A DNA stretch of 64,000 bases from Burkholderiales bacterium RIFCSPHIGHO2_01_FULL_63_240 (GTDB lineage Bacteria > Pseudomonadota > Gammaproteobacteria > Burkholderiales > Burkholderiaceae_C). Shown here one piece after another: positions 687 through 25,269 of the stretch. The first letter of the stretch is position 1. Each line of letters starts with the position of its first letter. The translations under genes and the position numbers were made by a program. The DNA is taken from contig MERU01000002.1 in the NCBI GenBank assembly GCA_001770725.1, positions 248,001 to 312,000 on the forward strand, in the 5' to 3' direction. The notes beneath the pieces were generated by a model. It was not told the origin of the DNA. It saw only the letters and a list, made by a program, of their open reading frames with translations, and did not search any database.

Positions 687-702
687 CGGCATGGCAATTG
701 CC
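687..702 (+). promoter_or_regulatory. candidate sigma-54 -24/-12 promoter upstream of glf: CGGCATGGCAATTGCC
   Basis: Exact match to GGCAYG-N4-TTGC, about 35 nt upstream of the GTG start. Confidence 0.75.
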
Positions 703-735
703 GCTCCTGGGTTGTAACACCAACCTGGAGACCCT

Positions 736-3119: not shown

Positions 3120-3701
3120 TCAGTGCGCCGCTTCGCTGGAGGAGGACGAAGAGGACGTGGCTTGCGCCCCATCGGCATCGCCCAGGCCTTGTTCGGCCAT
3201 GCGTTGCTGACGCAATTGCTGCATGTCGTCGCGCAAGTTGCGCCAGTTCATGCGGGCCCTGCTCAGTCCGGCAAAGATCTCGCCCTCCTCTTCCTTGACG
3301 TGGTGCTTGATGTATTCCCCCAGCACGGTGAAGGTGGCGCAGTAGCGCTCGTCCGAGCAGTCCATGGTCTTGAGCTGATCGATCAGCACATGGAAGGTCA
3401 TGTGCTCGACTTCGGCCTCGTCGATCAGACCGTCTTCTGCCAGCACGGTGCGGATGGCGGGATAGAACAGGTTCTCCTCGAGCTCGGCGTGGATCTCCAG
3501 CTCCGCGATGGTCGTGCGGACCAGTGCCTCGCACGAGGCCTCATCCTGCTTGTCCAGCTTTTCGAAGTCACGGAAGGCTTTTTTCACGCGCCGGTGATCC
3601 TCCTTGAGCTGATCGATGATTTCGTTGCGCGCGGCGGTGTCGGCTCGCGAGGCAGTTCGATGGGCGGAACCGGTGCTCGGTTCGGTGCGGGTGGTGGGCA
3701 T
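3120..3701 (-). CDS. hemerythrin domain-containing protein
   Basis: IIDQLKEDHRRVKKAF...HAELEENLFYPAI...EHMTFHVLIDQL...YIKHHVKEEEGEIF: conserved His/Glu pattern. Confidence 0.9.
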   Translation of the reverse strand: MPTTRTEPSTGSAHRTASRADTAARNEIIDQLKEDHRRVKKAFRDFEKLDKQDEASCEALVRTTIAELEIHAELEENLFYPAIRTVLAEDGLIDEAEVEHMTFHVLIDQLKTMDCSDERYCATFTVLGEYIKHHVKEEEGEIFAGLSRARMNWRNLRDDMQQLRQQRMAEQGLGDADGAQATSSSSSSSEAAH

Positions 3702-3740: not shown

Positions 3741-3756
3741 GGCAAACGCCATGCCG
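3741..3756 (-). promoter_or_regulatory. candidate sigma-54 promoter: CGGCATGGCGTTTGCC
   Basis: GGCATG-N4-TTGC on minus strand about 40 nt upstream of hemerythrin start (3701). Confidence 0.75.
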
Positions 3757-3927: not shown

Positions 3928-5319
3928 TCAGACCAGCGATGACTCGCTGTTGTCGGTTGAACTCAGGTCGCCGGAGTAATCCTTGAGCCTGTTGTAAAGG
4001 GTCTTGAGGCTGATGCCCAAGGTGGCCGCTGTGCGCTCTTTGTGGTTGTCAAAGTGCCGCAAGGTGGCCAGGATGAGGAAGCGCTCGGCTTCCGCCATCG
4101 ACTGTCCGATGCGCAACGTCACGGATGGGCCGTCGTCAGGCCTGTCCACCGCGGCCGCCGGGCGGATCGAAGGTGCAAGGAGCGCCGCATCGATCTCAGG
4201 TCCGTTGGCCATCACATAACTTCTTTGCACCACATTGCGCAGCTCGCGCACGTTGCCTGGCCAACGGTGGCAAGCCATGGACTGCAAGGCCTGTGGGGTG
4301 AACAAGGCTGCACGCCCTTCTTTCCTGGCGATCTCTTCGAGGAAATGGGCCGCCAGCAAGGGGATGTCATCGATGCGATCCCTCAGCGGCGGCACCTCGA
4401 CCGGGAAAACGTTCAAGCGATAGAGCAGGTCTTCGCGCAGCTTGCCTTGTGCCACGGCCTGAATGGGGTCGCGGTTCGTGGCGGCGATGATGCGCACGTC
4501 TGTCTCGCGGTCCTGCGTCGACCCAACCCGCATGAACATGCCCGTCTCGAGCACCCGCAGCAGCTTGACCTGCAGCTCCAGCGGCATCTCGGTGACCTCA
4601 TCGAGGAAAAGGGTGCCGCCGTGCGCACGCTCGAAGAACCCCTGGTGCATGCGCTCGGCACCCGTGAAGCTGCCCTTCTCGTGGCCGAAGATTTCGCTTT
4701 CGATGAGGTTGGGCGATATCGCTCCGCAGTTCACCGCCAGGAATGGCTGCTTGCGTCGTCGGCTGAGGTCGTGAACGGTTTGTGCAACGACTTCCTTGCC
4801 GCTGCCGCTTTCACCCGTCACGAAAACCGTGACCGAGGTGACCGCGACCTTGGCGAGCTGTTCGTAGACCCGTTGCATCGCGGCTGACCGCCCCCACAGC
4901 AAACCAAAGTTGCCGCGCTCGAGCACTCTCTCTCGCATCGAACTCAGCTCGGCCTGGAGTTCCGCAGGCCTCATCAAACGAGACAGGATGCCCTGCAGCT
5001 GCTTGATGTTGACGGGTTTGATGAGGTAGTCCGTTGCGCCATGGCGCAACGCCTGGATGGAGGTCTCGAGGCTGGCGTGACCGGTGATGAACACCACTTC
5101 CGAGTTGCTCAGCTCGGACGAGTCATGGATCAATTCCATGCCGCTGCCATCGGGCAGCATGAGGTCCAGCAGCACCAGATCAGGCTGATTCATCGCCAGC
5201 TGGGCGCGCGCTTCACGCAGGCTGTGAGCGGTGGCAACAGTGAAGCCTTCGGTGGCAATCAGCGCCGCCATGACTTCTGCAGATTCGCGGTCATCTTCCA
5301 CGATCAAGGCATGGCTCAT
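3928..5319 (-). CDS. sigma-54-dependent response regulator (NtrC family: REC-AAA+-Fis HTH)
   Basis: REC domain ALIVEDDRESAEVM...VLLDLMLPDGSG; Walker A GESGSGKE; GSFTGA loop; GTLFLDEVTEMP; C-terminal Fis-like HTH RTAATLGISLKTLYNRLKDY. Confidence 0.95.
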   Translation of the reverse strand: MSHALIVEDDRESAEVMAALIATEGFTVATAHSLREARAQLAMNQPDLVLLDLMLPDGSGMELIHDSSELSNSEVVFITGHASLETSIQALRHGATDYLIKPVNIKQLQGILSRLMRPAELQAELSSMRERVLERGNFGLLWGRSAAMQRVYEQLAKVAVTSVTVFVTGESGSGKEVVAQTVHDLSRRRKQPFLAVNCGAISPNLIESEIFGHEKGSFTGAERMHQGFFERAHGGTLFLDEVTEMPLELQVKLLRVLETGMFMRVGSTQDRETDVRIIAATNRDPIQAVAQGKLREDLLYRLNVFPVEVPPLRDRIDDIPLLAAHFLEEIARKEGRAALFTPQALQSMACHRWPGNVRELRNVVQRSYVMANGPEIDAALLAPSIRPAAAVDRPDDGPSVTLRIGQSMAEAERFLILATLRHFDNHKERTAATLGISLKTLYNRLKDYSGDLSSTDNSESSLV

Positions 5320-5483
5320 GAATTTCTCCTGTGGGAGTCGAACCGTCACGCTAGCTCAATTGATGAGCGCATTCGTAACGAATCGCTAGATCGTTGAGAA
5401 GGCCACTGAAGCGAATGGCCATTATGGGGTGCATCGCCATGATTCCCAAGATGTGAAAGGGCGCGGCGAAACTTCGGAGGGCC

Positions 5484-5499
5484 AGGCACGCTGTTTGCC
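5484..5499 (+). promoter_or_regulatory. candidate sigma-54 promoter: AGGCACGCTGTTTGCC
   Basis: GGCACG-N4-TTGC in the intergenic region upstream of the DUF421 gene. Confidence 0.7.
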
Positions 5500-5611: not shown

Positions 5612-6085
5612 ATGCTGATGCAGGCCCTTTTCGGCGTGACGACGTCACCCATCGAGATCGTCATCCGGGGAACGGCCGTCTACTGGTTCCTGTTCCTGAT
5701 CTTTCGCTTCGTGCTGCGGCGCGACATCGGGTCGGTGACCATTGCCGACGTGCTGGTGCTCATCCTCATTGCGGACGCCTCGCAGAATGCGATGGCGGGC
5801 GAATACCGCACGCTCAGCGAAGGGGCCTTGCTCATCTCCACCATCGTCGCGTGGAATTACGCACTGGATTGGGCGAGTTTCCGATGGCCCTGGCTCAGCC
5901 GCCTGATCAGCCCTCCTCCACTGTTGCTGGTGCGGCATGGCAGGGTGCTGCAGCGCAACCTCCAGCAGGAACTCATCACCACCGACGAACTGCTGTCCAA
6001 GCTTCGATCACAAGGCGTGGAAGACGTGAGCAAGGTCCGCAAGGCTTACATGGAGCCAGATGGCTCCATCAGCGTGCTCAAGTGA
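5612..6085 (+). CDS. DUF421 (YetF-like) membrane protein
   Basis: N-terminal TM helices; RGTAVYWFLFLIFRFVLRRDIGSVTIADVLVLILIADASQNAM; C-terminal YetF-like LLVRHGRVLQRNLQQELITTDELLSKLRSQGVEDVSKVRKAYMEPDGSISV. Confidence 0.88.
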   Translation: MLMQALFGVTTSPIEIVIRGTAVYWFLFLIFRFVLRRDIGSVTIADVLVLILIADASQNAMAGEYRTLSEGALLISTIVAWNYALDWASFRWPWLSRLISPPPLLLVRHGRVLQRNLQQELITTDELLSKLRSQGVEDVSKVRKAYMEPDGSISVLK

Positions 6086-6102: not shown

Positions 6103-6118
6103 GGGCATGTGGCTTGCC
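6103..6118 (+). promoter_or_regulatory. candidate sigma-54 promoter: GGGCATGTGGCTTGCC
   Basis: GGCATG-N4-TTGC upstream of the glycosyltransferase at 6225. Confidence 0.7.
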
Positions 6119-6224: not shown

Positions 6225-7181
6225 ATGGGCACACGGCGATTGAACATCCTCACCTGGCCTGTGCATGGCAGCTACATGCAGTACCTCTCGCAGGTGCCGC
6301 ACGATTTCTACCTCGTGCGCGATGCCTCCGGCAGCGTTGATCACACAGGCCGCAGCGGCAAATTGCCTTGGGGCAGCAATGTGCATGAGGCACCGGTCGA
6401 GCTGCTTGAATCGATGCCCTTCGATGTGGTGCTGTTTCAGTCACCGTCGGCCTACCTGCAGGACCAACACTGCCTGCTGAGCCAGGCGCAGCGCAACTTG
6501 CCGAAGATCTACCTGGAACTCGACCCTCCCGAGGGCCACCCGACAGACACCCGCCACGTGGTGGACGACCCCGACGTCTTGCTGGTGCATGTCAGCGCCT
6601 TCAACGAATTGATGTGGGACAGTGGTCGCACGCCCACGCGGGTCATCGAGCACGGTGTTCGACTGATCCAGCCTGCGAGCTACCAGGGCGGCCGCGATGC
6701 GGGCATCGTGGTCGTCGATCACCTGGGCACACGGGGGCGCCAGTCAGGCCTTGATGTCTACCATCGCGTGCGCCAGGAGGTGCCACTCGACCTCTTCGGG
6801 ATGGCCTCGGAGGAGCTGCCCGGAGGGCGAGGTGAAGTGGCGCACCAGGTGCTGCCATCCCTGATGAGTTCCTTTCGCTTTTTCTTTCACCCGGTGCGCT
6901 ACACCGGCATGAGCCTGTCCTTGATCGAAGCGATGATGGTGGGCTTGCCCGTTGTCGGTCTGGCGACCACCGAACTGGCCACGGTCATACGGCCCGGACA
7001 CGAGGGATACATCGACACCAGCATCGATCGCCTGGTTGACGCCATGCGGTGGCTGATCGGCCACCCGCAGGACGCCGAGATCATGGGAGAGGCCGCCCGG
7101 GCCACCGCCTGCGAGCGCTTTCACATCGATCGTTTCGTGAACGACTGGCAACGCGCGCTGAGCGAGGTCACGGGCGGTTGA
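6225..7181 (+). CDS. glycosyltransferase (GT-B, family 1-like)
   Basis: MGTRRLNILTWPVHGSYMQYLSQVPHDFYLV...; C-terminal MSLSLIEAMMVGLPVVGLATTELATVI. Confidence 0.8.
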   Translation: MGTRRLNILTWPVHGSYMQYLSQVPHDFYLVRDASGSVDHTGRSGKLPWGSNVHEAPVELLESMPFDVVLFQSPSAYLQDQHCLLSQAQRNLPKIYLELDPPEGHPTDTRHVVDDPDVLLVHVSAFNELMWDSGRTPTRVIEHGVRLIQPASYQGGRDAGIVVVDHLGTRGRQSGLDVYHRVRQEVPLDLFGMASEELPGGRGEVAHQVLPSLMSSFRFFFHPVRYTGMSLSLIEAMMVGLPVVGLATTELATVIRPGHEGYIDTSIDRLVDAMRWLIGHPQDAEIMGEAARATACERFHIDRFVNDWQRALSEVTGG

Positions 7182-7183
7182 GA

Positions 7184-7636
7184 TCAGTCTTGCGCGCGCA
7201 GCCGGTCTCGCATCAGGCGAATCTGATCGTGGTTGCGCAAGGCGCCCTCTTGCTGACGGATGACCACCATCCGGATGTTGGCGGGCAGGTCCTGCTCGAT
7301 GGCCTTCTTGTATCGGGCCTTGGCCACGTCTTCACCTCGCTCGCATTCCTCGAGCATCGCCAGGTCGGAGTAGCCGCTGAGGGTGCCCTTCAGCGCCACC
7401 CAGCCACGATGGACTGCACCACTGGCGCTGCCACTGCTCTCCGGTGTGCCGCCCAGTTGGGTCACCAGTGACTGCAACTCCATCGCGGCCCCGTTGCACT
7501 CGCGGGAACGCGACTGGAAAAGCTCCCTCAACTCGGTGGAATGCGTGTGTTCGGCACATGCCTTGAAGCCGTGTTCACCATCCCGGCAGTTTTCGATGAG
7601 GTCGTTGAGTACATCGATGACATCTTCATTCGTCAT
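7184..7636 (-). CDS. PA2169-like four-helix-bundle protein (DUF2383)
   Basis: MTNEDVIDVLNDLIENCRDGEHGFKACAEHTHSTELRELFQSRSRECNGAAMELQSLVTQLGG: ferritin-like DUF2383 pattern. Confidence 0.85.
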   Translation of the reverse strand: MTNEDVIDVLNDLIENCRDGEHGFKACAEHTHSTELRELFQSRSRECNGAAMELQSLVTQLGGTPESSGSASGAVHRGWVALKGTLSGYSDLAMLEECERGEDVAKARYKKAIEQDLPANIRMVVIRQQEGALRNHDQIRLMRDRLRAQD

Positions 7637-7692: not shown

Positions 7693-7708
7693 AGCACATG
7701 GCGTTCCC
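7693..7708 (-). promoter_or_regulatory. weaker candidate sigma-54 promoter: GGGAACGCCATGTGCT
   Basis: GG/GC spacing conserved; resembles the element at 25784..25799; about 57 nt upstream of DUF2383 start. Confidence 0.4.
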
Positions 7709-7762: not shown

Positions 7763-7778
7763 AGGCATGGCGATTGCC
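7763..7778 (+). promoter_or_regulatory. candidate sigma-54 promoter: AGGCATGGCGATTGCC
   Basis: Identical 16-mer to 18418..18433; upstream of outer-membrane protein gene. Confidence 0.75.
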
Positions 7779-7864: not shown

Positions 7865-8629
7865 ATGCGTCATGCCAACCACCCCTTTGTGTTGACCCTC
7901 ATCACCTTCGCCGCGTTGACGACTGCGGCGGCGGCGCAAGCGCAGTCATCCACGTCTGCAGACAGGCCCGTCGAGGTGGCCCCGACCGAGCCTTCAGGCA
8001 TCGGTAGCACCCCTTCTGCAAATCCGGCCGCCACGTCGGGCGATGCAGTTGCGCCCGCCAGCGCACCGATGGCCTTTGACCCACCCGCGGCAGGCAGTCG
8101 ATATGGTGGGGACGGCTACTCCTGGCTGCCTTACACGACCAGGGGATACGTTGGCATCAGTGGCGGCCAGGTCGAGATTGGCGACATGGCGTGTTCGCCG
8201 CTTTACAGCTGCGATGACAGCAGTGACCGCGTCATCAAGGCCTACACCGGCGGGATGTTCAACGAATACTTCGGCATCGAGCTGGCTTACTTCAACACCG
8301 GCAACATTGACCGATCGGGTGGTCGCGTGCGAGCCCATGGCGGCAACGTCAGCCTCATCGCCCAAGCACCCCTGGGCACGATGGCCGCGGTCTATGCCAA
8401 GGTCGGCGGCACCTACGCCTGGACCAAGACCTCGGTGGGCCCGCTGGCCATCGGCATCCCGAGCGGCAATGAAAGTGACGCGGGGGCGTCGTATGGTGCG
8501 GGCCTGCGCGTGAACGCCTCGCAAAACTGGGCGTTCGTCCTCGAATGGGAGCGCCACTCTCTGAAGTTCGCGGGCGACGACAAGAACGGCACCAAGTTGA
8601 CCACCTTGGGCGTGCAGTACCGCTTCTGA
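7865..8629 (+). CDS. outer membrane beta-barrel protein
   Basis: Signal peptide; RGYVGISGGQVEIG...TLGVQYRF with C-terminal aromatic residue typical of barrel proteins. Confidence 0.8.
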   Translation: MRHANHPFVLTLITFAALTTAAAAQAQSSTSADRPVEVAPTEPSGIGSTPSANPAATSGDAVAPASAPMAFDPPAAGSRYGGDGYSWLPYTTRGYVGISGGQVEIGDMACSPLYSCDDSSDRVIKAYTGGMFNEYFGIELAYFNTGNIDRSGGRVRAHGGNVSLIAQAPLGTMAAVYAKVGGTYAWTKTSVGPLAIGIPSGNESDAGASYGAGLRVNASQNWAFVLEWERHSLKFAGDDKNGTKLTTLGVQYRF

Positions 8630-9576: not shown

Positions 9577-9954
9577 TCAGGGTTTGATGCCCTGTTCCTG
9601 CAGCGCTTTGAGGCCTTGCTGCACCTCGGCGTTGGCGCGCCGGGACCGCTCCGCACCGGCCTTGTTGCGGGCCAGCAGCGCATCGACCTCGGCTTCTTCT
9701 GCCAGGGCCCGTGCGCGATCGTTGTCTCCCTTTGCGGCAGCCACTTTGGCTGATTCGAATTTGTTGCGGGCCAGCAGCAGCTCGGCCGGTGCCATTTCGG
9801 CAGCCCCGGCCGACACGGCGCCATCCAGCGCTGCCCCAGCCAGGAGCAGCTCCTGTTGGGGGGGCGCGCTGGCACAGCCAGCGAGGGCCGATGCCATGCA
9901 CACAGCGGACCACAAAAGTTGTCTGCCCAGTGGGCGAGCGATTTGTTCTGCCAT
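9577..9954 (-). CDS. DUF4398 domain-containing lipoprotein
   Basis: ALAGCASAPP lipobox; helical APAELLLARNKFESAKVAAAKGDNDRARALAEEAEVDALLARNKA. Confidence 0.85.
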   Translation of the reverse strand: MAEQIARPLGRQLLWSAVCMASALAGCASAPPQQELLLAGAALDGAVSAGAAEMAPAELLLARNKFESAKVAAAKGDNDRARALAEEAEVDALLARNKAGAERSRRANAEVQQGLKALQEQGIKP

Positions 9955-9990: not shown

Positions 9991-10006
9991 GGCATCTTTT
10001 GTGCCT
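9991..10006 (-). promoter_or_regulatory. candidate sigma-54 promoter: AGGCACAAAAGATGCC
   Basis: GGCAC-N7-TGC with correct GG/GC spacing about 37 nt upstream of ATG at 9954. Confidence 0.5.
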
Positions 10007-10064: not shown

Positions 10065-11306
10065 TCAACCCAGCTTGATGCCTCGCGACAGCATCTGGAC
10101 CTCGGGCGCCACCCCACCCGCAGGCAACTCGCTCAGGGACCACACTTCTTCGAAGTCCTGCTGATGAGGGTTGAGCGTGGCCAGCTTCTTCCGCATGGCA
10201 TGGTGAATCAGGCTCAACATGGCCTGAGCTGTGGCGCGCCACGAGAAATGCGACAAGCCGTGCCTGGCATCGCCGCTGCCCAGCAAATTTGCCCGATGAG
10301 AGGATGCCAGCACAGCCTCGCACAGCTCGATGAAATCAGCCTCGTTGCTGGCGATGTGCACCACCTCGCCGTACAGCGCAATGACATCCCGAACCGCCGT
10401 GCTGACAACGGGCTTTTCTGCTGCGAGGTACTCGAGGGTCTTGGTGGGACTGATGTATTGCGTGGCGTCGTTGAGTGCGAACGGCATCAGGCAGACATCC
10501 CAGTCCCGCACCAGGTATGGCAGACGCGCGTAAGGCTGCGGCCCCAGCCAATGGATGTTCTCGCGCCTGGGCAATGCGGCGGGATCCACCTTCGCGACAG
10601 GTCCGACCATGACGATGCTCCATTGCGGATGCGCGTCCGCCAACGACGCCACCAGCTTGAGGTCCATCCGCTCGTCGATGACCCCGAAATAGCCCAGGCG
10701 CGGTCGTCCCAGGTGGCCCTGCAGGGTCAACGCTTGCCCCGCGTGCGGTGAGAACCCGTCGAGCTTGGAAGGCGCGAAATGGTCCACGTCGACCGCACTG
10801 GGTTGGCAATGGACATTGGGATGCAGCGTTCGCTTGGCCTCATAAAGGCCGATCCCGCCTGTGAAGACGACATCGGCGCGTTTCATCAGCGCGAGCTCTT
10901 GCTGCCGCATGCCTTGCGGCGCGCCCTTGAAAGATGCCAGCTCGTCCATGCAGTCATAGACCACGACGACGGGATCGATCGCGCGCAGCAACGGCAGGGC
11001 CATGGGCGTGTAGAACCAGGCCAACGTCTCCTCGATGCCATGGGCCCGCAGGTATTCGACCAGCAGCGGCTCGATCACACGGATCTGGTCAGGGTGATGG
11101 CCGGCCTCTCGCACAGGTGTGTGCGGCCGAAGCACCACCACTCCCGGTGCCGGGCTCGATTCTTCGAAGTGGGCGAGCTCCTCGCTGTGAACGGGCTCCT
11201 CGATGTAGACCACCGGGTGGGTGGCCGCCATGCGGCTGAGCAGGTGCTGCGGCCGCTGATGAACGAAATCCCAGCGCAGATGGGAAAAGACGATGAGGTG
11301 CGGCAT
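10065..11306 (-). CDS. glycosyltransferase (GT-B)
   Basis: MPHLIVFSHLRWDFVHQRPQHLLSRMA...PRLGYFGVIDERMDLKLVASLADAHPQWSIVMVGPV...SPTKTLEYLAAEKPVVSTAV. Confidence 0.88.
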   Translation of the reverse strand: MPHLIVFSHLRWDFVHQRPQHLLSRMAATHPVVYIEEPVHSEELAHFEESSPAPGVVVLRPHTPVREAGHHPDQIRVIEPLLVEYLRAHGIEETLAWFYTPMALPLLRAIDPVVVVYDCMDELASFKGAPQGMRQQELALMKRADVVFTGGIGLYEAKRTLHPNVHCQPSAVDVDHFAPSKLDGFSPHAGQALTLQGHLGRPRLGYFGVIDERMDLKLVASLADAHPQWSIVMVGPVAKVDPAALPRRENIHWLGPQPYARLPYLVRDWDVCLMPFALNDATQYISPTKTLEYLAAEKPVVSTAVRDVIALYGEVVHIASNEADFIELCEAVLASSHRANLLGSGDARHGLSHFSWRATAQAMLSLIHHAMRKKLATLNPHQQDFEEVWSLSELPAGGVAPEVQMLSRGIKLG

Positions 11307-11340: not shown

Positions 11341-11356
11341 AGCAATCGGCATACCC
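11341..11356 (-). promoter_or_regulatory. candidate sigma-54 promoter: GGGTATGCCGATTGCT
   Basis: GG and TTGCT with correct spacing, about 36 nt upstream of glycosyltransferase start. Confidence 0.5.
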
Positions 11357-11494
11357 GTGGCCATGCGGCGTGCGCTCTTCAATCGGCAAAGGCATGCGCG
11401 GCCGGTAATTTCTACAAACCCGATGCCAGGTTCGACACGCATTCAAGAGGTGCCTTCGAAGCTGGACACAGGATGAACAACCCATCGAAGGCTC

Positions 11495-11510
11495 GGGCAC
11501 AGGTGTTGCA
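11495..11510 (+). promoter_or_regulatory. candidate sigma-54 promoter upstream of rpoN paralog: GGGCACAGGTGTTGCA
   Basis: GGCACA-N4-TTGCA, about 66 nt upstream of the rpoN ATG. Confidence 0.7.
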
Positions 11511-11574
11511 ACGATCCACCGTCGGCGACCCTCCGGGTCGAATCCGAACGCACAAAGAGCATGGAGAAAAGAGA

Positions 11575-13083
11575 ATGGGAACCCTGTCCATCAAGACAGC
11601 TCACAAGCAACATCAGACCCTGACTCCCCGCCTGCAGCACGCGGTGCGCCTGCTGCAACTGTCGTCGCTTGATTTCGCTCAAGAGGTGCAGGCGGTCCTG
11701 GACAAGAACCCTTTCTTGGACGTGGCGGAAGACGACGAAGCAGGCCTGGCCTCCACGGGGCCGGCGCAGACCATGCCCGATCCAGCGGCCAACATGGAAG
11801 GGTTCGAGTCTCCCCCCAGCCTGGCCAGCGAGGATCAGGCCATGTCGTCATCGACCGGCGATTCGGACGCACCCCCGGAGATGGGCGATGAGCAAGCCGG
11901 CCCTGCCGATGACCTAGACCGCGACTCCTGGCAGCTGACGGGCTCCTCATCGAAGGTGTCGGGCGATGGCGAGACCAGCATCATCGACCTGATGGCGGAT
12001 CACGCCTCCTTGCGGCAGCACCTGCACACGCAGCTCAACGTCATGCACCTGTCCGAACGGGAGCTCCTGATCGCAGGGGTGATCGTTGAATCCATTGACG
12101 ACGATGGGTACCTGCGTGACAACCTCGATGACTTGAGGGCCATCTGCGACATCGATCCTCCGCCGGACATGTCAGAGATGCTTCAGGCATTGCAGCATGT
12201 GCAGACGCTGGAGCCCGCCGGGATAGGCGCACGCAACGTCGCTGAAACCTTGCTCATCCAACTCAACCAGCAACCCTCTCACCCCGGCCATGGTCTGGCC
12301 CGACAGATCGTTGAACACCACATGGAACGTCTGGTTCGCCACGATGTCTGTGGTCTGGCGCGCGAGATGGGGTGCACGGTCCATGAAATCGAGTCAGCAT
12401 GCAACTGCATCCGCCGCCTCGACCCGCGTCCCGGCTGGCGCCTGGGCTCGACCGTCGTTCAGTACATCACCCCTGACGTGATCGTGCGCAAGTTCCGCGG
12501 GGAGTGGACCGTTTCTTTGAGCTCATCGATCGTGCCGCGGGTCAGGCTCAACCAGATGTACGCGGACCTTTTTCAGCGCCACCGCAACGGCAAACACACC
12601 GAACTGGCGGCACACCTGCAGGAAGCCCGCTGGACGATCCGCAATGTGGAGCAACGCTTCGCCACCATCTTGCAAGTCAGCGAAGCCATCGTGCGCCGTC
12701 AGAAGAATTTTCTCGAGTACGGAGCGCTGGCCATGCGGCCGATGGCATTGAAGGAAATCGCGGAAGAAATCGGCCTGCATGAGTCCACCGTCTCGCGGGT
12801 CACCAACAACAAGTACATGTCGACGCCGGTCGGGGTGTTCGAGCTGAAGTATTTCTTTTCACGCGCCATGGTCACCGCCACGGGAGGCACCTGTTCGGCG
12901 ACGGCCATCCGAGGCGTCATCCAGACCATGATCGACGAAGAAGCGCCCTGCTCACCCTTGTCCGACGCCGAGATCGCCCGCAGGCTCGCTCGCCAGGGAT
13001 TGAACGTGGCACGCCGCACGGTCACGAAGTACCGACAGGCCATGCGCATCGCCCCGGTCGAGCACCGCAGAAGGGTGGCCTGA
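11575..13083 (+). CDS. rpoN: RNA polymerase sigma-54 factor (RpoN family)
   Basis: Region I QTLTPRLQHAVRLLQLSSLDFAQEVQAVLDKNPFLD; core-binding region; HTH ESTVSRVTNNKYMSTPVGVFELKYFFS; RpoN box ARRTVTKYR. Confidence 0.96.
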   Translation: MGTLSIKTAHKQHQTLTPRLQHAVRLLQLSSLDFAQEVQAVLDKNPFLDVAEDDEAGLASTGPAQTMPDPAANMEGFESPPSLASEDQAMSSSTGDSDAPPEMGDEQAGPADDLDRDSWQLTGSSSKVSGDGETSIIDLMADHASLRQHLHTQLNVMHLSERELLIAGVIVESIDDDGYLRDNLDDLRAICDIDPPPDMSEMLQALQHVQTLEPAGIGARNVAETLLIQLNQQPSHPGHGLARQIVEHHMERLVRHDVCGLAREMGCTVHEIESACNCIRRLDPRPGWRLGSTVVQYITPDVIVRKFRGEWTVSLSSSIVPRVRLNQMYADLFQRHRNGKHTELAAHLQEARWTIRNVEQRFATILQVSEAIVRRQKNFLEYGALAMRPMALKEIAEEIGLHESTVSRVTNNKYMSTPVGVFELKYFFSRAMVTATGGTCSATAIRGVIQTMIDEEAPCSPLSDAEIARRLARQGLNVARRTVTKYRQAMRIAPVEHRRRVA

Positions 13084-13085: not shown

Positions 13086-13838
13086 TCAGGCACCCGAGGG
13101 AGGGGAAGACGCCGGGATGTGGCCCTGGCCTGCCTGAGTGAGTCGGGCGTGTTCGCGCAGGACGAGGCCTCGCAACATCGCCGCCAGGCTCAGGGCCAAG
13201 GCTTCGTCGTACCAAGGGTGTGCGCCGCTGACGCCGACCACCAGGCCTTCGAGGTTCACGCCGCCCCCCACCAAGGTGTCGCCCGACCTGAGCAAGTGAG
13301 GGCGTGCCTGAGCCGCCCTGCTGTCACCGCCTGACTCCCAGGACAGGCGTGCCTTGGCCCGAGCCAGTTCCATGTGATCGGCGTCCCAGTCCCCTCGATC
13401 CCCCAAGCCATGCTCCAGCAGGAGCGCATCGTCAAAGCCGTGTTCATGGTGCGAGCGCGCGGGATCGAGCATCACCACCGCCAACGCCCCTGTTTCACAC
13501 ACCTCAGGGTCTTCGATCGCCGCCTGAAGCACGGGCAGGAGCCGATCCATTGCCTCCTGCGCCAGGGCCTTCGTGAGCAAGCCGCAGCGCTCTTGCGCAA
13601 CGATGGGTGGGGGCTGATGCCCGCCCGGCTTCAACGCCCAGTCCACCGCGTCGCGGGCGCTCTCCACCCGGTGAAGGGCATGCATCGCGGCCGTCGGAGA
13701 AATGGGGTCGCTGGCCGGAAAGGTTTCGTCCAGCGCCTCGTCAAGCAGCTCCTGGTAGGTGGGCACTTTCTCTCCCTGGCTCGGGCAATCACCCGAGTTC
13801 CGCTTGCTTTCCCGTTTGCGGGCGTGTGCGTCTTTCAT
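13086..13838 (-). CDS. hypothetical protein with DETFPASDP motif and GlcG/HbpS-like C-terminal region
   Basis: LLDEALDETFPASDPISP near N-terminus; MELARAKARLSW...LVGGGVNLEGLVVGVSGAHPWYDEALALSLA resembles GlcG/HbpS heme-binding-like family. Confidence 0.6.
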   Translation of the reverse strand: MKDAHARKRESKRNSGDCPSQGEKVPTYQELLDEALDETFPASDPISPTAAMHALHRVESARDAVDWALKPGGHQPPPIVAQERCGLLTKALAQEAMDRLLPVLQAAIEDPEVCETGALAVVMLDPARSHHEHGFDDALLLEHGLGDRGDWDADHMELARAKARLSWESGGDSRAAQARPHLLRSGDTLVGGGVNLEGLVVGVSGAHPWYDEALALSLAAMLRGLVLREHARLTQAGQGHIPASSPPSGA

Positions 13839-14473: not shown

Positions 14474-14905
14474 TCAGCAGGCGGGCTCGGAGGGGTCGGA
14501 GATGCCTTTGAGTGCTTCACCTGTGTCCTCGCCTGTGGCTTTGACAGCGATGTCGCCCAAGGAGAGCATGCCGACCAGGCGCTTGTGGCGATCGACCACG
14601 GGCAGGCGCCGAATCTGCAGGGCCCGCATCCTGTCCAACACCTCCTCGACCTTGTCGTCGTCGTAGCACCACGCGGCTTCTTCGGTCATCACCTCGGCAA
14701 CGTGCATCCGGTCATTGGCTTGGCCCTGGGCCACTCCTCGGATCACGATGTCGCGGTCGGTGATCATGCCCACCAGGCGGTCGCCGTCACAGACTGGCAG
14801 CGCACCAATGTCCAGCTCGGTCATGGCCTGCGCGGCTTGCACGAGGTTGTCGCTTGGGCAGACGGTTCGCACGCCCCGTGTCATGGCGTCGGCAACTTGG
14901 TTCAT
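14474..14905 (-). CDS. CBS-domain pair protein
   Basis: Two CBS motifs: AAQAMTELDIGALPVCDGDRLVGMITDRDIVIR and VLDRMRALQIRRLPVVDRHKRLVGMLSLGDIAVK. Confidence 0.92.
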   Translation of the reverse strand: MNQVADAMTRGVRTVCPSDNLVQAAQAMTELDIGALPVCDGDRLVGMITDRDIVIRGVAQGQANDRMHVAEVMTEEAAWCYDDDKVEEVLDRMRALQIRRLPVVDRHKRLVGMLSLGDIAVKATGEDTGEALKGISDPSEPAC

Positions 14906-14953: not shown

Positions 14954-14969
14954 GGCAAGGGACATGCCG
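14954..14969 (-). promoter_or_regulatory. candidate sigma-54 promoter: CGGCATGTCCCTTGCC
   Basis: GGCATG-N4-TTGC about 50 nt upstream of CBS-Hsp20-GlcG-like operon. Confidence 0.75.
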
Positions 14970-15002: not shown

Positions 15003-15018
15003 GGGCATGGCGCTTGCC
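15003..15018 (+). promoter_or_regulatory. candidate sigma-54 promoter: GGGCATGGCGCTTGCC
   Basis: GGCATG-N4-TTGC, divergent from 14954..14969; upstream of small ORF at 15077. Confidence 0.72.
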
Positions 15019-15076
15019 GTGAATGCTGGTCAACAGCGGGCAATTGCTGTTCCCGTTTCAACTTCAGGAGCCACCG

Positions 15077-15346
15077 ATGTCGAGTCCCCTTCAACCTCTC
15101 CCGCCTACCCGCTTGGTCTGCATGGAAGGACGCGCTTCGCAGGGCATTGGTCCTTCTGGCGATCCGACGGGCTCCTCCGATGACCGTGGCACCGCCACCC
15201 CCGACGGCAACCTGACCGGCCATGAGCCCGGCAGCCAGGACAAGCCGACGTCCGAAGAGCCCGGCGTCATCGCGCCTGACAGCCGTCCGGTGCGCGACCA
15301 CGGGATGGTCGACGGCACCCGCCAAGGCCCTGTCCAGGCTCAATGA
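15077..15346 (+). CDS. small disordered hydrophilic protein (89 aa)
   Basis: MSSPLQPLPPTRLVCMEGRASQGIGPSGDPTGSSDDRGTATPDGNL...; AGGAG ribosome-binding site at 15066-15070 and promoter motif upstream. Confidence 0.6.
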   Translation: MSSPLQPLPPTRLVCMEGRASQGIGPSGDPTGSSDDRGTATPDGNLTGHEPGSQDKPTSEEPGVIAPDSRPVRDHGMVDGTRQGPVQAQ

Positions 15347-16476
15347 GCCCCCGGAACCCCATCGGCTCCAGGCCCCTGATCCGACTGAGCCCCCTCCGCG
15401 GCACCCTCCTCGACCCAGGAGACACGCAGCCTGGGCAATCCTTGCGGGTGAGCGGTCTGCACAACATGTATCAGGTGCTCGCGCACCGCGCAGCGCAGCT
15501 TCCAGCTCTGTGAGGAATCCCTGCTGCTGACCAGGCAGCGCACCTGCATGGCCTTCTCTGAAACATCCGTGACTTCCAGTTCGCAAACCCGACCGTCCCA
15601 CAGCGCGTGCGCGCCAACGAAACGCTCCAACTCTTGCCGAAGGGCCGGTACCGATTGCCGGTGGTCGAGCCACAGCAAAACGCTGCCAAGGATCTGTGCG
15701 TTGTTGCGCGTCCAGTTCTGAAAGGGATGCTGGGTCCACCATTCGAGTGGAACGATGAGTCGGCGTTCATCCCAGATCGCCACGACCACATAGGTTCCTG
15801 TGATTTCTTCGATGCGCCCCCACTCCCCTTCGACGATCACAACGTCATCCAGGCGGATGGGTTGGGTCAGGCCGATCTGAATGCCCGCGATGAAGTTCGC
15901 AAGCAGAGGACGGGCCGCCAAACCAGCGACGATGCCTGCCAGACCGGCCGAGGCCAGCAAGCTGGCCCCGACATGCCTGACCTGGGGAAAGGTCATGAGG
16001 GCCAGGGCGATGCCCAACATCCCGATGATCGAGGCCAGGGTGCGGCTGATGATGCGGGTCTGGGTGTGCAGGCGCCGAGCGGACAGGTTGTCCGACTGCG
16101 AGGACGGGCGCAGCAGCGCCACCATCTCCGCCATCGCCTGCACGGCCCGGATGAGCAGCCACGTCATCGAGAAGATGATCGACACGGTCATCAGTCGGCG
16201 CACGCCGATCACGCCTGGCAGCTCGTCGGGCACAGAAGACAGCACCAGGGACCACGCCAGCAAGGGCGCCAGGAGAAAAGCCGGTTTGCGGGTGACCCGA
16301 CGAAGGACACCCAGGATGGGCGATTCCGCCGAGACCCGGCGCCCCACTGCGTCCAGCACTCGCATGCCTGCCCAGGTGCAAACGCCCACGCCGAACATGA
16401 CGGCCAGCACCCACCACCACCCCGGGTCCACTTCCCCCTCCCAAGCGCTTGGCCAAGCCCGCTGCCACCCATTCAT
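15340..16476 (-). CDS. MscS-family mechanosensitive ion channel
   Basis: ALMTFPQVRHVGASLLASAGLAGIVAGLAARPLLANFIAGIQIGLTQPIRLDDVVIVEGEWGRIEEITGTYVVVAIWDERRLIVPLEWW. Confidence 0.93.
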   Translation of the reverse strand: MNGWQRAWPSAWEGEVDPGWWWVLAVMFGVGVCTWAGMRVLDAVGRRVSAESPILGVLRRVTRKPAFLLAPLLAWSLVLSSVPDELPGVIGVRRLMTVSIIFSMTWLLIRAVQAMAEMVALLRPSSQSDNLSARRLHTQTRIISRTLASIIGMLGIALALMTFPQVRHVGASLLASAGLAGIVAGLAARPLLANFIAGIQIGLTQPIRLDDVVIVEGEWGRIEEITGTYVVVAIWDERRLIVPLEWWTQHPFQNWTRNNAQILGSVLLWLDHRQSVPALRQELERFVGAHALWDGRVCELEVTDVSEKAMQVRCLVSSRDSSQSWKLRCAVREHLIHVVQTAHPQGLPRLRVSWVEEGAAEGAQSDQGPGADGVPGAH

Positions 16477-16523: not shown

Positions 16524-16539
16524 GGCAAGCCGCGTGCCT
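16524..16539 (-). promoter_or_regulatory. candidate sigma-54 promoter: AGGCACGCGGCTTGCC
   Basis: GGCACG-N4-TTGC about 48 nt upstream of mscS-like gene. Confidence 0.75.
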
Positions 16540-18417: not shown

Positions 18418-18433
18418 AGGCATGGCGATTGCC
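18418..18433 (+). promoter_or_regulatory. candidate sigma-54 promoter: AGGCATGGCGATTGCC
   Basis: Identical to 7763..7778; about 40 nt upstream of the DUF883-like ATG. Confidence 0.75.
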
Positions 18434-18472: not shown

Positions 18473-18775
18473 ATGACCGCAGACACCTCCGACCCCACCG
18501 ATGGCTTCATTGAACGCTCCGCTCAGGCAGCGCACAAGACCATCGACGAAGTGGCCGAAAAGACCACCAAGACGATCGACCGCCTGCAGGCCTCCGCCAG
18601 CGGCCTGGGCGAACAGATCACGGACAAGGCCCGAGCTTTCAACAACCTGGAACACCAGGTGGTCGAGAAGGTGCGTGGTCAGGTGCGCGAACACCCCCTC
18701 ACCTGCCTGCTGGTGGCGGTCACGGCGGGCCTGCTCATTGCGCGGCTGACCCGTCCTTCGGCCTCGCCGCGCTGA
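18473..18775 (+). CDS. ElaB/YqjD/DUF883-like membrane-anchored protein
   Basis: Long amphipathic helix then C-terminal TM VREHPLTCLLVAVTAGLLIARLTR. Confidence 0.78.
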   Translation: MTADTSDPTDGFIERSAQAAHKTIDEVAEKTTKTIDRLQASASGLGEQITDKARAFNNLEHQVVEKVRGQVREHPLTCLLVAVTAGLLIARLTRPSASPR

Positions 18776-18827: not shown

Positions 18828-19130
18828 TCAAGTCGAGCTCCGGCTCCCTTCCATCCGACGCGCGGCGGACTTGAACCGCCGATGCCGGTGCCTTTGCTCT
18901 GGCGTGGTTTCCATGGGAGGCTCGTCCAGCGCTGGGCGAACGCGGTTCGCGCTGGGCCCCCGATCCGACAGGCTCAGCTCGAACACAACGCTCATCTGAG
19001 GTTTCAGGCTTTTGTAGCCTTGCATGTCGATCGCGGAGAAATGGACAAACACGTCGGCCTCACAAGCCGGGGTCTGGATGAAGCCATAGCCCTTTTCATC
19101 GCTGAACCATTTGACCTGCCCTGTCTGCAT
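18828..19130 (-). CDS. cold-shock domain protein with C-terminal basic extension
   Basis: MQTGQVKWFSDEKGYGFIQTPACEADVFVHFSAIDMQGYKSLKPQMSVVFEL: CSD RNP motifs. Confidence 0.92.
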   Translation of the reverse strand: MQTGQVKWFSDEKGYGFIQTPACEADVFVHFSAIDMQGYKSLKPQMSVVFELSLSDRGPSANRVRPALDEPPMETTPEQRHRHRRFKSAARRMEGSRSST

Positions 19131-19184: not shown

Positions 19185-19200
19185 GGCAAACGACGGGCCC
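19185..19200 (-). promoter_or_regulatory. candidate sigma-54 promoter: GGGCCCGTCGTTTGCC
   Basis: One mismatch from GGCACG in the -24 half, TTTGCC at -12; about 55 nt upstream of csp-like gene. Confidence 0.55.
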
Positions 19201-19299
19201 GGACGATCAGCTTCCCGAGGGCTGCGCTGTCGCCAGGTCGTGTCCGGATGAAAGCAAGTGCGTGGGTTTGTTCCCGAAGGAGGCATCGCCCGCATCCGA

Positions 19300-19315
19300 T
19301 GGCACGGCTTGTGCG
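19300..19315 (+). promoter_or_regulatory. candidate sigma-54 promoter: TGGCACGGCTTGTGCG
   Basis: Perfect TGGCACG -24 half, TGC at -12; far (about 240 nt) from histidine kinase ATG. Confidence 0.4.
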
Positions 19316-19551
19316 TGCCGAGCCTCACGGAAGCGCCAGATGACCCGTCCCGCCCTGCAGACCGCCAATCTCCCTCATCCCGGCATGCCCAGGTCGGTAG
19401 TTTTTTCTGCAATGTCATTGCTTGCGTGCACAGTCGGACACGTTTGAACCACGGACAGGCGGGTCATGTCGGCACCTGTTCAGGCAATGTCTGGCAGTCG
19501 GATGACATTCACGGAACAGGCCCTGTTCCCCAACCGGCGCAATACACAGGC

Positions 19552-22500
19552 ATGTCCTCTCCTCGCACCCCATCCTTTCCGCGCTTGTGGCGAACCCGAT
19601 GGCCGCTGGCATCTGTGCGCAGCTACCTCCATGTCATCACCCTGGTTGCTGTGTTGCCCCTCGCCCTGCTGACCAGCTGGCTGATCGGCAGGCAGGTATC
19701 GGTGGCACGCGAGCAGCTGTCGATGGGGCTGCAGCAGGGGGCCAGCTCCATGGCCTTGATGATCGACCGGGAACTGAGCGCATCGGTCGAGGCGCTGCAA
19801 GCCCTGGCCGAGTCCTCGCAGTTGCAAAAGGGGGACATCCGGGGTTTCGAGCGGCGGCTGCGGGCCTTCGTCAGCATTCGGCCCGCCTGGAGCCAGGTCA
19901 GCCTCGTCGAGGCTCAGCACGGGGAGGTCCTCAGCAGCGTGCCGGGCAACAGGGACACCGCCAATGAACCCTTGCCGCCGGATTTCCCCATCCCTCGCTC
20001 GGCCGCCGAGGTCGAGCCCTATTTCTCCGGCCTGGTCCGGGGCCCGCGGCCAGGGCAATGGCACACACGCATCACCATGCCGGTGTGGCGCGCGAACCAG
20101 TTGCGTTATTACCTTCACGTCGACATTGACGAGAAATACTGGCAGAACCTGATCGTCGGGGCTTCCCCGCAACGCCAGGGGTTCGTCACGCTCTATGACC
20201 GCTCGAAGACCGTCATCGCCCGCACGATCAAGCCGAACGTTCACATCGGGCAACCCCTGCCATCGCACCCCGCGCGCGACAGCAAGCCCAGTGGCTTTCA
20301 CAAGATCGAGGTGGAAGGCGAAGACGACTCCTATGTGGCTTGGCAGGAAATCGCGCATTCCGGGTGGGGGGTGCGGATGGGCGTCAGCGCGGCTGCCCTG
20401 GATCACAACAAGCTGATCGCTTTTGTCTCGATTGCCGGCACCGGCATCGTGTCCCTTTTCGCGGGGCTCCTGCTGTCACGGATGGTGGCGACGCGCATCA
20501 TCAAACCCTTGAGCATCCTCTCGCAGGGCAAGGCGGCAAGTTTGCGCGACGAAGACACCACGGTCTTCGAGATCTCCATGCTCAGGAACGCCATGCTCGC
20601 CGCCGAGCAGCAGCGCGACCTGGCCACGCAGCGGCTGCAGGCCAAGGCGGCCGAGTTCGAAACGCTCTTTCTCATGAGCCCGATCGGCCTGTCGATCACG
20701 CTCGATCCCCAGGCCAACGAAGTGCTGCGCAACCCCGCCAAGATGGCGCTGTTCAACTCGCCCACGCAAGGCCCTCAGAGGTACGAGATCGTTGTCAATG
20801 GCCGGGTGTTGCCTCCCTCGGAGCACCCACTCAAACGGGCAGCACGAGGCGAACGCATCCACAACCTCGACCTGGAGGTTCGTCACCACGATGGCCGCGT
20901 GCTCAAGCTCATCGCCTATGCCCTTCCCCTGCTGGACCTGCGTGGCAAGCCCCGCGGGGCGATCGCCATTTTCGTCGACGTCACCGAGCGGGTCCAGTCT
21001 CAGAACAAGCTCCTGCTGGCTCAGGCCCGGCTGGAGGACAACCAGCACTTCATCACACTCGCCCAGAAAGCTGGCGACGTGGGCTTCTGGGATCACCGCA
21101 TCGAAGAGAACCGGCTGACACTGACCTCGGGGCTGTCGCTGCTTTTCGGCATGGGGCAGGCAGAAAAGGAGATCACGTGGGAAGAATGGCTGGCGAAGAT
21201 CAAGCACCCCGACGAAGCCACCCTGACGTCCCTGCTGCGGGAGGCCTGGCAAGACCACCAGGAGCAAGTCAACTTCCAGCTGCAGGTTCAGCAAGGCGAC
21301 ATGCCTGAGCGCTGGCTGGCGTGCCGTGGCGTGTGTGTCTACAACGCCCAAGGCGCGCCCATCCGGATGATCGGTGCGGTGGTCGATGTGACCGCGCAGC
21401 ACCAGATCGAGCACGAGCGCAGCAGGCTGATCGAGCAGGAGCAGATTGCGCGGCTGGAAGCCGAACAGGCCAACAGGGCCAAGGACGAGTTCCTCGCCAT
21501 CCTCGGGCACGAGTTGCGCAACCCCCTTGGTGCCATCTCCGCGGGCATCGAGGTGCTCAACCGCATCAGCCCGGAAGGAGACCAGCCCGCACGGATGCGC
21601 CAGATCATTTCCCGGCAGACGCGGCACCTCGCCCGCCTCATGGATGACCTGCTGGATGTCGCGCGCGTCATCGCCGGCAAGATCCAGCTGTCTGTGCACC
21701 CGGTCAGTGTGCGAGCCACGGTGCAACGCGTGGTCAACACATTCAAGATCACGGGCCTGACGCAGGCCGTGGAGATCGATGTCGATGACGTCTGGGTGCA
21801 GGCGGATTCGGTGCGTCTGGAGCAGATCATCAACAACCTGATCACCAACGCTGGCAAATACAGCCCACCCGACCTGGTCATCCAGGTCATCGCCAAGGCG
21901 CATGGGCCGGTGGTCAGGCTCCAGGTGATCAACCACGGGCCATTGATACCGCCCACCTTGCTGCCTCACATCTTCGACCTGTTCGTCCAGGGAGAGCGCA
22001 CGATCGAGCGTCGGCAAGGGGGGCTCGGCATCGGCCTGACGCTGGTCAAGAGCCTGGTGGACCTGCACCATGGCAAGGTGGAAGTGAGCACATCCGATGA
22101 CCGCAACATCTTCACCGTCGAGTTGCCCGCGGCCCAGCCCGATGAGCGGGCAGCTTCCGAAGCGCCGGGCCTGGCCACCCATCGGCGCCGCGTGGTGATC
22201 GTCGAGGACAACGACGATGCCCGAGAGGCCGTGCAGCTCATGCTCGAGGTCGGGGGGCACGAGGTGATCGCGCACACGGATGGCGACATGGGACTGCATG
22301 CCATCCTCGAGAAGCAGCCCGATCTGGCCCTCGTCGACATCGGTCTGCCCGGCCGCTCGGGCTACGAGGTGGCCCGGGCCGCGCGCGAAGCAGGCTTTGT
22401 CGGCTGGCTCATTGCCCTTTCCGGCTACGGTCAGCAGCAGGATGTGCAAAGGGCGCTGGACAACGGGTTCGATTTCCACATGGTCAAGCCATTGGACCAG

Positions 22501-22575
22501 CAGTTGCTGGATGACTACCTTGCGCGGCCAGCTCGTGAATTGCGACTGTCTCTGAACGAGTTACCTGCGGGCTGA
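19552..22575 (+). CDS. hybrid sensor histidine kinase/response regulator with periplasmic sensor and PAS domains
   Basis: N-terminal TM/periplasmic region, H-box ILGHELRNPLGAISAGIEVL, N/G boxes, C-terminal REC VVIVEDNDDAREAVQ...ALVDIGLPGRSGYEVAR. Confidence 0.93.
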   Translation: MSSPRTPSFPRLWRTRWPLASVRSYLHVITLVAVLPLALLTSWLIGRQVSVAREQLSMGLQQGASSMALMIDRELSASVEALQALAESSQLQKGDIRGFERRLRAFVSIRPAWSQVSLVEAQHGEVLSSVPGNRDTANEPLPPDFPIPRSAAEVEPYFSGLVRGPRPGQWHTRITMPVWRANQLRYYLHVDIDEKYWQNLIVGASPQRQGFVTLYDRSKTVIARTIKPNVHIGQPLPSHPARDSKPSGFHKIEVEGEDDSYVAWQEIAHSGWGVRMGVSAAALDHNKLIAFVSIAGTGIVSLFAGLLLSRMVATRIIKPLSILSQGKAASLRDEDTTVFEISMLRNAMLAAEQQRDLATQRLQAKAAEFETLFLMSPIGLSITLDPQANEVLRNPAKMALFNSPTQGPQRYEIVVNGRVLPPSEHPLKRAARGERIHNLDLEVRHHDGRVLKLIAYALPLLDLRGKPRGAIAIFVDVTERVQSQNKLLLAQARLEDNQHFITLAQKAGDVGFWDHRIEENRLTLTSGLSLLFGMGQAEKEITWEEWLAKIKHPDEATLTSLLREAWQDHQEQVNFQLQVQQGDMPERWLACRGVCVYNAQGAPIRMIGAVVDVTAQHQIEHERSRLIEQEQIARLEAEQANRAKDEFLAILGHELRNPLGAISAGIEVLNRISPEGDQPARMRQIISRQTRHLARLMDDLLDVARVIAGKIQLSVHPVSVRATVQRVVNTFKITGLTQAVEIDVDDVWVQADSVRLEQIINNLITNAGKYSPPDLVIQVIAKAHGPVVRLQVINHGPLIPPTLLPHIFDLFVQGERTIERRQGGLGIGLTLVKSLVDLHHGKVEVSTSDDRNIFTVELPAAQPDERAASEAPGLATHRRRVVIVEDNDDAREAVQLMLEVGGHEVIAHTDGDMGLHAILEKQPDLALVDIGLPGRSGYEVARAAREAGFVGWLIALSGYGQQQDVQRALDNGFDFHMVKPLDQQLLDDYLARPARELRLSLNELPAG

Positions 22576-22600: not shown

Positions 22601-22616
22601 AGGCACACCGATTGCT
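22601..22616 (+). promoter_or_regulatory. candidate sigma-54 promoter: AGGCACACCGATTGCT
   Basis: GGCACA-N4-TTGCT upstream of GT2 gene at 22712. Confidence 0.65.
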
Positions 22617-22711: not shown

Positions 22712-23725
22712 ATGCAAACGCATCATCGGCCGCCACCTCTGCGTTTTTCCGAACGCGCCTCCACCGCCGCATCCAGCCGCGCGGCCCCTCGGGTGACGGT
22801 GATCGTGATGACCCGCGAGCAGCCCCAAGGGCTGGCGGGGGTGCTCCAGCAACTGCGCCAGCTGCCCGATCAACCGCGCCTGATCGTGCTCGACAACGCG
22901 TCATGTCATGCCGCGGCCGTGGCGCAGGTCGCCAGGCTTCACGGCGCTGACCTCGTGCGCTGCGAACACCATCTCGGGACATCCGCCTTCAACCAGGTCG
23001 TTGCCCGTGTGACAACGCCCCATGTGGCCTTCTGTGATGCCAGCACCTGGTGGTCGGATGGCGCGCTCAAGCGCGCTTGCGACATCCTGGATGAGTTCCC
23101 CCACATCGGCGCCATCAACGGCCGGGTGCTGGTGGGCAGCAACGAAGACGAGCACGATTGCTGCACGCGCATGCAGCACAGCACGCTGGACAATGCGGGG
23201 CTGCCTGGTCCGGCCTTGCTGTCATTCATGTCGAACGCGGTGGTCATTCGCACCCGCGCCTTCCGTCACGCCGGGGGATACGAGCCGCAGGCGTTCTGTG
23301 GCGCCGAGGACGCCCTGATCGGGCTCAGTCTGGCCGCGCTCGGCTGGCGCATGGTCTACGTGCAAGACGTGACCCTGCACCAGCTCTCTTGCACGCGAGC
23401 GAAGGCGCCCCCCTCCCCGATCTTCATCTTGCGCAACCGACTGTGGGTGGCCTGGCTGCGCCTGCCCTGGCGCGACGCATGGCGAGAAACGCGCGCTGTG
23501 CTCTCGGATGCCTGGCAGGCAGGCCAGCTCTGGCCGGTGCTGTGGCGCAGCCTTCAGCCGTTTTCCTGGCTGCTGCTGAACCGGCGTGCCGTGCCGGACC
23601 TGGTTGCGGAGATGCATCGCACGGCGAGCTCATCGGCAGCCACATCGGACCCGGCACGCGCTCCATCCAGGCCCCTGCCGAAACAGTCCCCGGGCCGCCC
23701 GACCAACAACATGCCGTCATGCTGA
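22712..23725 (+). CDS. family 2 glycosyltransferase
   Basis: PRVTVIVMTREQPQGLAGVLQQL...PRLIVLDNAS...HVAFCDASTWWSDGAL...SNAVVIRTRAFRHAGGYEPQAFCGAEDALIGLSLAALGWR. Confidence 0.88.
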   Translation: MQTHHRPPPLRFSERASTAASSRAAPRVTVIVMTREQPQGLAGVLQQLRQLPDQPRLIVLDNASCHAAAVAQVARLHGADLVRCEHHLGTSAFNQVVARVTTPHVAFCDASTWWSDGALKRACDILDEFPHIGAINGRVLVGSNEDEHDCCTRMQHSTLDNAGLPGPALLSFMSNAVVIRTRAFRHAGGYEPQAFCGAEDALIGLSLAALGWRMVYVQDVTLHQLSCTRAKAPPSPIFILRNRLWVAWLRLPWRDAWRETRAVLSDAWQAGQLWPVLWRSLQPFSWLLLNRRAVPDLVAEMHRTASSSAATSDPARAPSRPLPKQSPGRPTNNMPSC

Positions 23726-24969: not shown

Positions 24970-24985
24970 CGGCATGCCGTTTGCT
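24970..24985 (+). promoter_or_regulatory. candidate sigma-54 promoter: CGGCATGCCGTTTGCT
   Basis: GGCATG-N4-TTGCT about 30 nt upstream of small ORF ATG at 25015. Confidence 0.75.
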
Positions 24986-25014: not shown

Positions 25015-25269
25015 ATGGAACATGACAAGCCCACCCCTGGCGAGCAGCCGAACGCCGAGACCAAACCCAGCGTTCACAACCGCCCCGTGCCACGCCTGCC
25101 CCACGAGCGAGACGAATCAGCCTCGAGTCAGCGTGGCCCGGATCAGGAGGTTGTCCGTCAGGCTGCCCGCGACATCGAGAACGGGCTGGAAGACACCGGG
25201 ACAGGGCCCGTTCTCGACGCCACGCATCGGCGACTCTTCCCCGAAGACGAAGACCGCACCGAAGACTGA
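25015..25269 (+). CDS. small acidic hydrophilic protein (84 aa)
   Basis: MEHDKPTPGEQPNAETKPSVHNRPVPRLPHERDESASSQRGPDQEVVRQAARDIENGLEDTGTG...; AGGAG RBS and promoter motif. Confidence 0.7.
   Translation: MEHDKPTPGEQPNAETKPSVHNRPVPRLPHERDESASSQRGPDQEVVRQAARDIENGLEDTGTGPVLDATHRRLFPEDEDRTED

Follow-up and report, generated by a model that had tools for sequence, protein, structure and literature searches.

The second sigma-54 gene (rpoN2) encoded in the 64,000-nucleotide stretch of Burkholderiales DNA analysed here, henceforth the window, quite probably serves a largely insulated transcription subsystem dedicated to the envelope and stress island that surrounds it. According to this proposal, RpoN2 is an old sigma-54 paralog whose holoenzyme would read a modified -24/-12 element, VGGCAYR-N4-TTGCY, in which neither the -26 T nor the -11 A typical of housekeeping promoters is present. 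These variant promoters would be opened by a response regulator that carries a GSFTGA loop (3928-5349) and is itself the probable phosphorylation target of a hybrid kinase encoded nearby. The output would be an island of about 24 kb encoding glycosyltransferases, UDP-galactopyranose mutase, outer-membrane proteins, hemerythrin, DUF421, DUF2383, CBS, MscS and cold-shock proteins, and we predict an envelope and general-stress programme because of these gene families. The proposal is built on features of the sequence, namely two rpoN copies, a separate clan for the second, a local concentration of promoters with their own base preferences, an associated GSFTGA activator and residue signatures within the protein; we infer that RpoN2 rather than RpoN1 reads the island promoters. 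A sequence-only reading of this DNA had suggested a dedicated second sigma-54 inside its own target cluster, and copy number, phylogeny, the clustered variant motif and the GSFTGA activator strongly support that suggestion.

The rpoN2 gene (11575-13083, + strand, 502 amino acids) is a complete sigma-54 gene whose product matches three Pfam domains, all above cut-off (AID 2e-13, CBD 9e-56 and DBD 2e-61). Region I, the core-binding domain, the helix-turn-helix (HTH) and the RpoN box are all intact as judged by Pfam, the tree and clan-diagnostic residues, and the box reads ARRTVTKYR(Q), conforming to ARRTVxKYR; the earlier description of an intact sigma-54 with this box is therefore confirmed. 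GGAG precedes the ATG. The upstream neighbour is, as had been stated, a glycosyltransferase gene (10065-11306, -), whereas the ‘GlcG-like’ label given to 13086-13838 corresponds to a weak HbpS-like match (E = 0.05).

The host genome (4.12 Mb, 99.99% complete) harbours exactly two rpoN genes, and the possibility that rpoN2 is the only one, raised beforehand as fatal to the idea of a dedicated paralog, consequently falls away. The search for a second copy led to C5:3931-5439, which is 40% identical to rpoN2 and adjoins lptA. This is the usual housekeeping setting and C5:3931-5439 is the housekeeping rpoN; the order lptA-lptB-rpoN annotated in Comamonas odontotermitis represents the same setting. 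One C. odontotermitis record labelled as a plasmid (L073, NZ_CP083452.1) carries lptA-lptB-rpoN together with argS and therefore probably represents a chromid or a chromosomal fragment. Two rpoN copies in Burkholderiales have been reported before (PMC3162934, PMC4371752). Maximum-likelihood analysis of 38 RpoN proteins gave a tree in which a 100/100 branch parts all second copies from all housekeeping copies, and the two host proteins, whose phylogeny had been proposed as a check, lie on opposite sides of this split. The host RpoN2 groups with that of genome YF3 (83% identical), with Gulbenkiania, Propionivibrio and others, and the second copies of Burkholderia fall in the same RpoN2 clan; the Comamonadaceae OTU4 row sits on a long branch and its placement is unsure. 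Several residues that distinguish RpoN2 from housekeeping proteins are fixed or nearly fixed, including Q18R, I23V/L, T30S, L33F and L46F in region I and, on the DNA-binding side, Q387N by the HTH, S405R, and A459T and E463Q in the RpoN box, in what we take to be E. coli numbering. Region I is described as making the contact with the activator loop (PMC4676750), and the changes fit, without proving, an altered specificity for both activator and promoter.

The predicted promoters of the island differ from housekeeping -24/-12 sites in their composition at -26 and -11, in their clustering and in their spacing. In many genomes, a first scan found -24/-12-like sites near rpoN2 without the usual -26 T. 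The pattern [ACG]GGCACR-N4-TTGC, counted over the 20 kb on either side of rpoN2, was observed 6 times against 0.28 expected in G287, 5 against 0.24 in G231, 7 against 0.17 in G038, 4 against 0.08 in G115 and 3 against 0.28 in G127, and VGGCAC-N5-TTGC places 6 of its 48 host-genome sites inside the window and 6 of its 27 YF3 sites within 48 kb around the rpoN2 of that genome. Among 48 sites from the rpoN2 regions of nine genomes, position -26 is A in 16, C in 18, G in 12 and T in 2, and position -11 is C in 29, T in 14, G in 3 and A in 2; no variant sites occurred in five housekeeping rpoN regions (103 kb).

An initial matrix scan of the host with 42 sites from other genomes, YF3 included, already made an excess in the window visible. 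A cleaner matrix of 36 sites from the rpoN2 neighbourhoods of other genomes, with YF3 also left out, found 13 sites scoring 13 bits or more across window positions 1-30000 against 0.7 expected (Poisson 5e-13), the background being 9 such sites in a 400-kb sample of stretches from the host genome. The exact string VGGCAYR-N2-R-N-TTGCY (VGGCAYRNNRNTTGCY) has 13 matches in the 4.12-Mb genome, and 10 of these fall at window 687-24985 (about 24 kb; binomial 1e-20). This p-value is optimistic because the string was refined after the window matrix matches had been seen, and these informed the choice of its -21 Y; of the two tests, the matrix one is cleaner. The reversed pattern, an imperfect null, had no match in the genome. 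Enrichment is confined to the sigma-54 spacing: when the gap in GGCAY-gap-TTGCY was varied from 2 to 10, a gap of 5 gave 12 sites over 26 kb of host DNA and each other gap 0-2, the corresponding YF3 counts being 15 and 0-2. The canonical motif TGGCAC-N5-TTGCW, allowing up to one mismatch, matched the genome 171 times against 96 for reversed controls and had no exact site in the window, and therefore does not reveal the regulon. Genome-wide motif abundance was rejected as a marker of rpoN2, the counts being similar with and without the gene; the only special feature of the variant motif is its clustering, not its genome-wide count.

Around rpoN2 lie about 18 variant start signals before envelope- or stress-type genes, most of them 50-130 bp ahead of a start codon (gene starts were called from ORFs in this analysis) and usually with a ribosome-binding site. 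Ten combine the exact motif with a matrix match. These predicted RpoN2-type sites are CGGCATGGCAATTGCC (687-702, +), 49 bp before the UDP-galactopyranose mutase gene (736-1920, +); CGGCATGGCGTTTGCC (3741-3756, -) before a hemerythrin gene (3120-3701, -), whose counterparts in YF3 and G287 are likewise preceded by an RpoN2-type site; AGGCACGCTGTTTGCC (5484-5499, +) before DUF421/YetF (5612-6085, +); GGGCATGTGGCTTGCC (6103-6118, +) before a glycosyltransferase (6225-7181, +); AGGCATGGCGATTGCC, once at 7763-7778 (+) before an outer-membrane beta-barrel protein (7865-8629, +) and again at 18418-18433 (+) before a small protein (18473-18775, +); GGGCATGGCGCTTGCC (15003-15018, +) before a small ORF (15077-15346, +); AGGCACGCGGCTTGCC (16524-16539, -) before an MscS-type channel (15340-16476, -); AGGCACACCGATTGCT (22601-22616, +) before a family-2 glycosyltransferase (GT2; 22712-23725, +); and CGGCATGCCGTTTGCT (24970-24985, +) before a small ORF (25015-25269, +). 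The matrix further predicts a promoter, AGGCACGCCCGTTGCC (2327-2342, -), before a small Q-rich protein (2026-2277, -), and detects AGGCACAAAAGATGCC (9991-10006, -) before a DUF4398 protein (9577-9954, -), where YF3 has AGGCACAAAAGATGCT; CGGCATGTCCCTTGCC (14954-14969, -) before a CBS protein (14474-14905, -), with a second site at 15039-15054; GGGCCCGTCGTTTGCC (19185-19200, -) before a cold-shock protein (18828-19130, -); and GGGAACGCGGCTTGCT (25784-25799, -) before an ORF at 25314-25709 (-). Weaker matrix matches are GGGAACGCCATGTGCT (7693-7708, -) before DUF2383 (7184-7636, -), a 16-mer that also scored in YF3 at G300:C7:267520 (-), and GGGTATGCCGATTGCT (11341-11356, -) before the glycosyltransferase gene next to rpoN2. 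The DUF421, GT2 and rpoN2 promoters are orthologous between the host and YF3, and in other genomes the sites stand ahead of hemerythrin, BON, PRC-barrel, DUF883-like, ferritin-like and glycosyltransferase genes.

Both the host and YF3 have overlapping -24/-12-like sites in opposite orientations with the TTGCC part in common (window 687-708; G300:C7 250683/250704), an overlap that arises because GGCAN7TGCC is partly palindromic. At the contig ends of G130:C5 and G130:C24, GGGCACGGCCGTTGC is present in several copies over a stretch of about 2 kb, suggestive of a repeat element. Directly after the island, at window 25744-28502, are two tandem GGDEF (diguanylate cyclase) genes. Just outside it, window 30184-35785 contains an ImuB-like gene (IMS_C, 31106-32548) in tandem with a DnaE-type polymerase gene (32561-35785) and is likely an ImuAB-DnaE2 mutagenesis cassette; an 18.9-bit RpoN2-type site, CGGCACACCCGTTGCC, at 31296 (-), which falls within the ImuB-like gene but on its other strand, is probably a chance match.

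The proposed cognate activator of RpoN2 is an NtrC-type protein (3928-5349, -) with REC, AAA+ and Fis HTH domains and a GSFTGA loop, as identified by Pfam, sequence and motif scan, and is encoded 6 kb from rpoN2. GSFTGA occurs in all 14 readable activators near rpoN2 at 11 loci, these rows being related rather than independent events; seven other activators of the host genome carry GAFTGA, and one further is unreadable. As a unique marker of rpoN2 the loop was rejected, a GSFTGA-type pattern being present in 94 of 300 genomes, many without a detected rpoN2. By its proximity alone, a hybrid histidine kinase (19258-22575, +; PAS, HisKA, HATPase and REC by Pfam) is a candidate sensor for the activator. 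Dyad enrichment aimed at an activator-binding site mostly rediscovered the promoters, and the extra candidate it yielded, GTGGC-N2-CTGAA, was not enriched in the island.

The promoter of rpoN2 itself is a hybrid, with G at -26 and A at -11. This -24/-12 element, GGGCACAGGTGTTGCA (11495-11510, +), has 64 nt between its last base and the ATG, where a site had been placed at about 66 nt. All of its 16 bases are kept in YF3, as is the CGG that precedes them, while the DNA around them differs in large part. The alignment of both genomes reveals a further conserved block, GTAATTTCTACAAACCC..GCC.GGTTCGACA (11405-11437), a candidate activator-binding site. The regulon matrix gives GGGCACAGGTGTTGCA 9.9 bits, largely because of the -11 A. 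We see an even chance that rpoN2 is switched on by RpoN1 and an activator, with RpoN2 in turn driving the island and the 11495 site being RpoN1-dependent or shared, with little or no feedback. All 14 exact TGGCAC-N5-TTGCW sites of the host genome share this -11 A, which regulon sites almost never have; across lineages a -26 T is found in 6 of 11 rpoN2 promoters vs 3 of 66 other cluster sites (hand tally), and in Ralstonia solanacearum rpoN2 expression is reported to be abolished in an rpoN1 mutant (PMC4371752). The -26 G of the host site and the regulon form of the rpoN2 promoters in Gulbenkiania and G231 count against such a cascade. Positive autoregulation, in which RpoN2 and the GSFTGA activator fire the rpoN2 promoter, is a possible though somewhat doubtful explanation: a -24/-12-like site precedes almost all rpoN2 genes examined and the host element sits among regulon sites, but the -11 A, the low matrix score and the Ralstonia dependence on rpoN1 speak against it. 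The -11 A and the Ralstonia data therefore make control of rpoN2 by RpoN1, possibly with feedback, at least as likely as pure autoregulation. The sequence-only reading had called the gene probably autoregulated; its upstream element is real and conserved, whereas the feedback itself is weakened by a housekeeping-like -11 A that is nearly absent from the regulon.

A further explanation is that RpoN2 is redundant or nearly so, with RpoN1 reading all promoters and the variant motif reflecting the activator or base composition. The Ralstonia RpoN2 can function in E. coli (PMC4676750), and rpoN2 is not known to have a strong phenotype in Ralstonia (PMC4371752); yet the clan is long-lived and separate, with invariant clan-specific residues, and in many lineages deviating promoter sites cluster around rpoN2, all of which renders redundancy improbable. 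The promoter class may also be tied to the gene families rather than to RpoN2. A role as an antagonist, binding -24/-12 promoters but not activating them, as suggested for Ralstonia (PMC4676750), is very improbable given an intact region I and an activator with a matching loop change encoded in the same island.

The largely insulated RpoN2 subsystem that we favour instead provides a concrete regulon, promoter code and partner signature for a second sigma-54, all directly testable, and would assign a testable job to the second sigma-54 that related bacteria carry, which is poorly understood. It would constitute a natural example in which sigma-54, activator and promoter have changed in concert, and could help to explain how an activator-dependent paralog becomes insulated. 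Whether it extends further is evenly balanced in our estimation: RpoN2 (Q18R/L33F, A459T), the GSFTGA activator and a promoter code of their own (without -26 T or -11 A) could form a previously undescribed, largely orthogonal subsystem across Betaproteobacteria that acts as a general envelope and stress switch below RpoN1. Neither the variant promoter class nor a stress-type island as an RpoN2 regulon turned up in the open-licence papers searched.

Ralstonia solanacearum GMI1000 offers close parallels in description. Its RpoN2 (RSp1671) is likewise a second rpoN product with a -24/-12 site upstream of its gene, and, as proposed for the window, is not interchangeable with RpoN1 (PMC4371752, PMC4676750); two tabulated GSFTGA activators, RSp1667 and RSp1668, are encoded a few genes from rpoN2 (PMC4676750). 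Unlike that of the window, the Ralstonia rpoN2 promoter reads TGGCAC...TTGCA, RSp1671 having been compared by description, and the available portions of both papers describe no variant promoter class or stress island for RpoN2. There the role of the second sigma-54 is called enigmatic (PMC4371752) and its activator partners are left to future work (PMC4676750). Expressed from a plasmid, the Ralstonia RpoN2 complements an E. coli rpoN mutant and the C4-dicarboxylate growth of an rpoN1 mutant (PMC4676750); insulation is therefore not absolute, if that protein belongs to the RpoN2 clan of the window. The rhizobial rpoN2 genes of R. etli and B. japonicum resemble ours as second sigma-54 genes with their own regulation (work referenced in PMC4371752 and PMC3162934), but belong to a different class, reportedly serve symbiosis and encode products about 36% identical to the window protein. 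In Cereibacter (Rhodobacter) sphaeroides the paralogs RpoN1, RpoN2 and RpoN3 each have their own activator and promoter preference (PMC11999139), as proposed here, and it is established that RpoN1 and RpoN2 use distinct cognate activators and diverge at -11 (PMC11999139, citing Poggio 2006). That system is alphaproteobacterial and serves nif, flagella and xrpA rather than a clustered envelope and stress island, and the window promoters, unlike those of Cereibacter, deviate at both -26 and -11. The rpoN genes on replicons listed as plasmids in Burkholderia multivorans, B. pyrrocinia and B. stagnalis belong to the same RpoN2 clan as the window gene; their products are about 42% identical to the window RpoN2, and nearby sites mostly have G or T rather than C at -11. 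As in the window, the B. multivorans and B. pyrrocinia copies lie among stress-type genes, annotated there as Ku/LigD, trehalose synthesis, DUF4142 and CBS.
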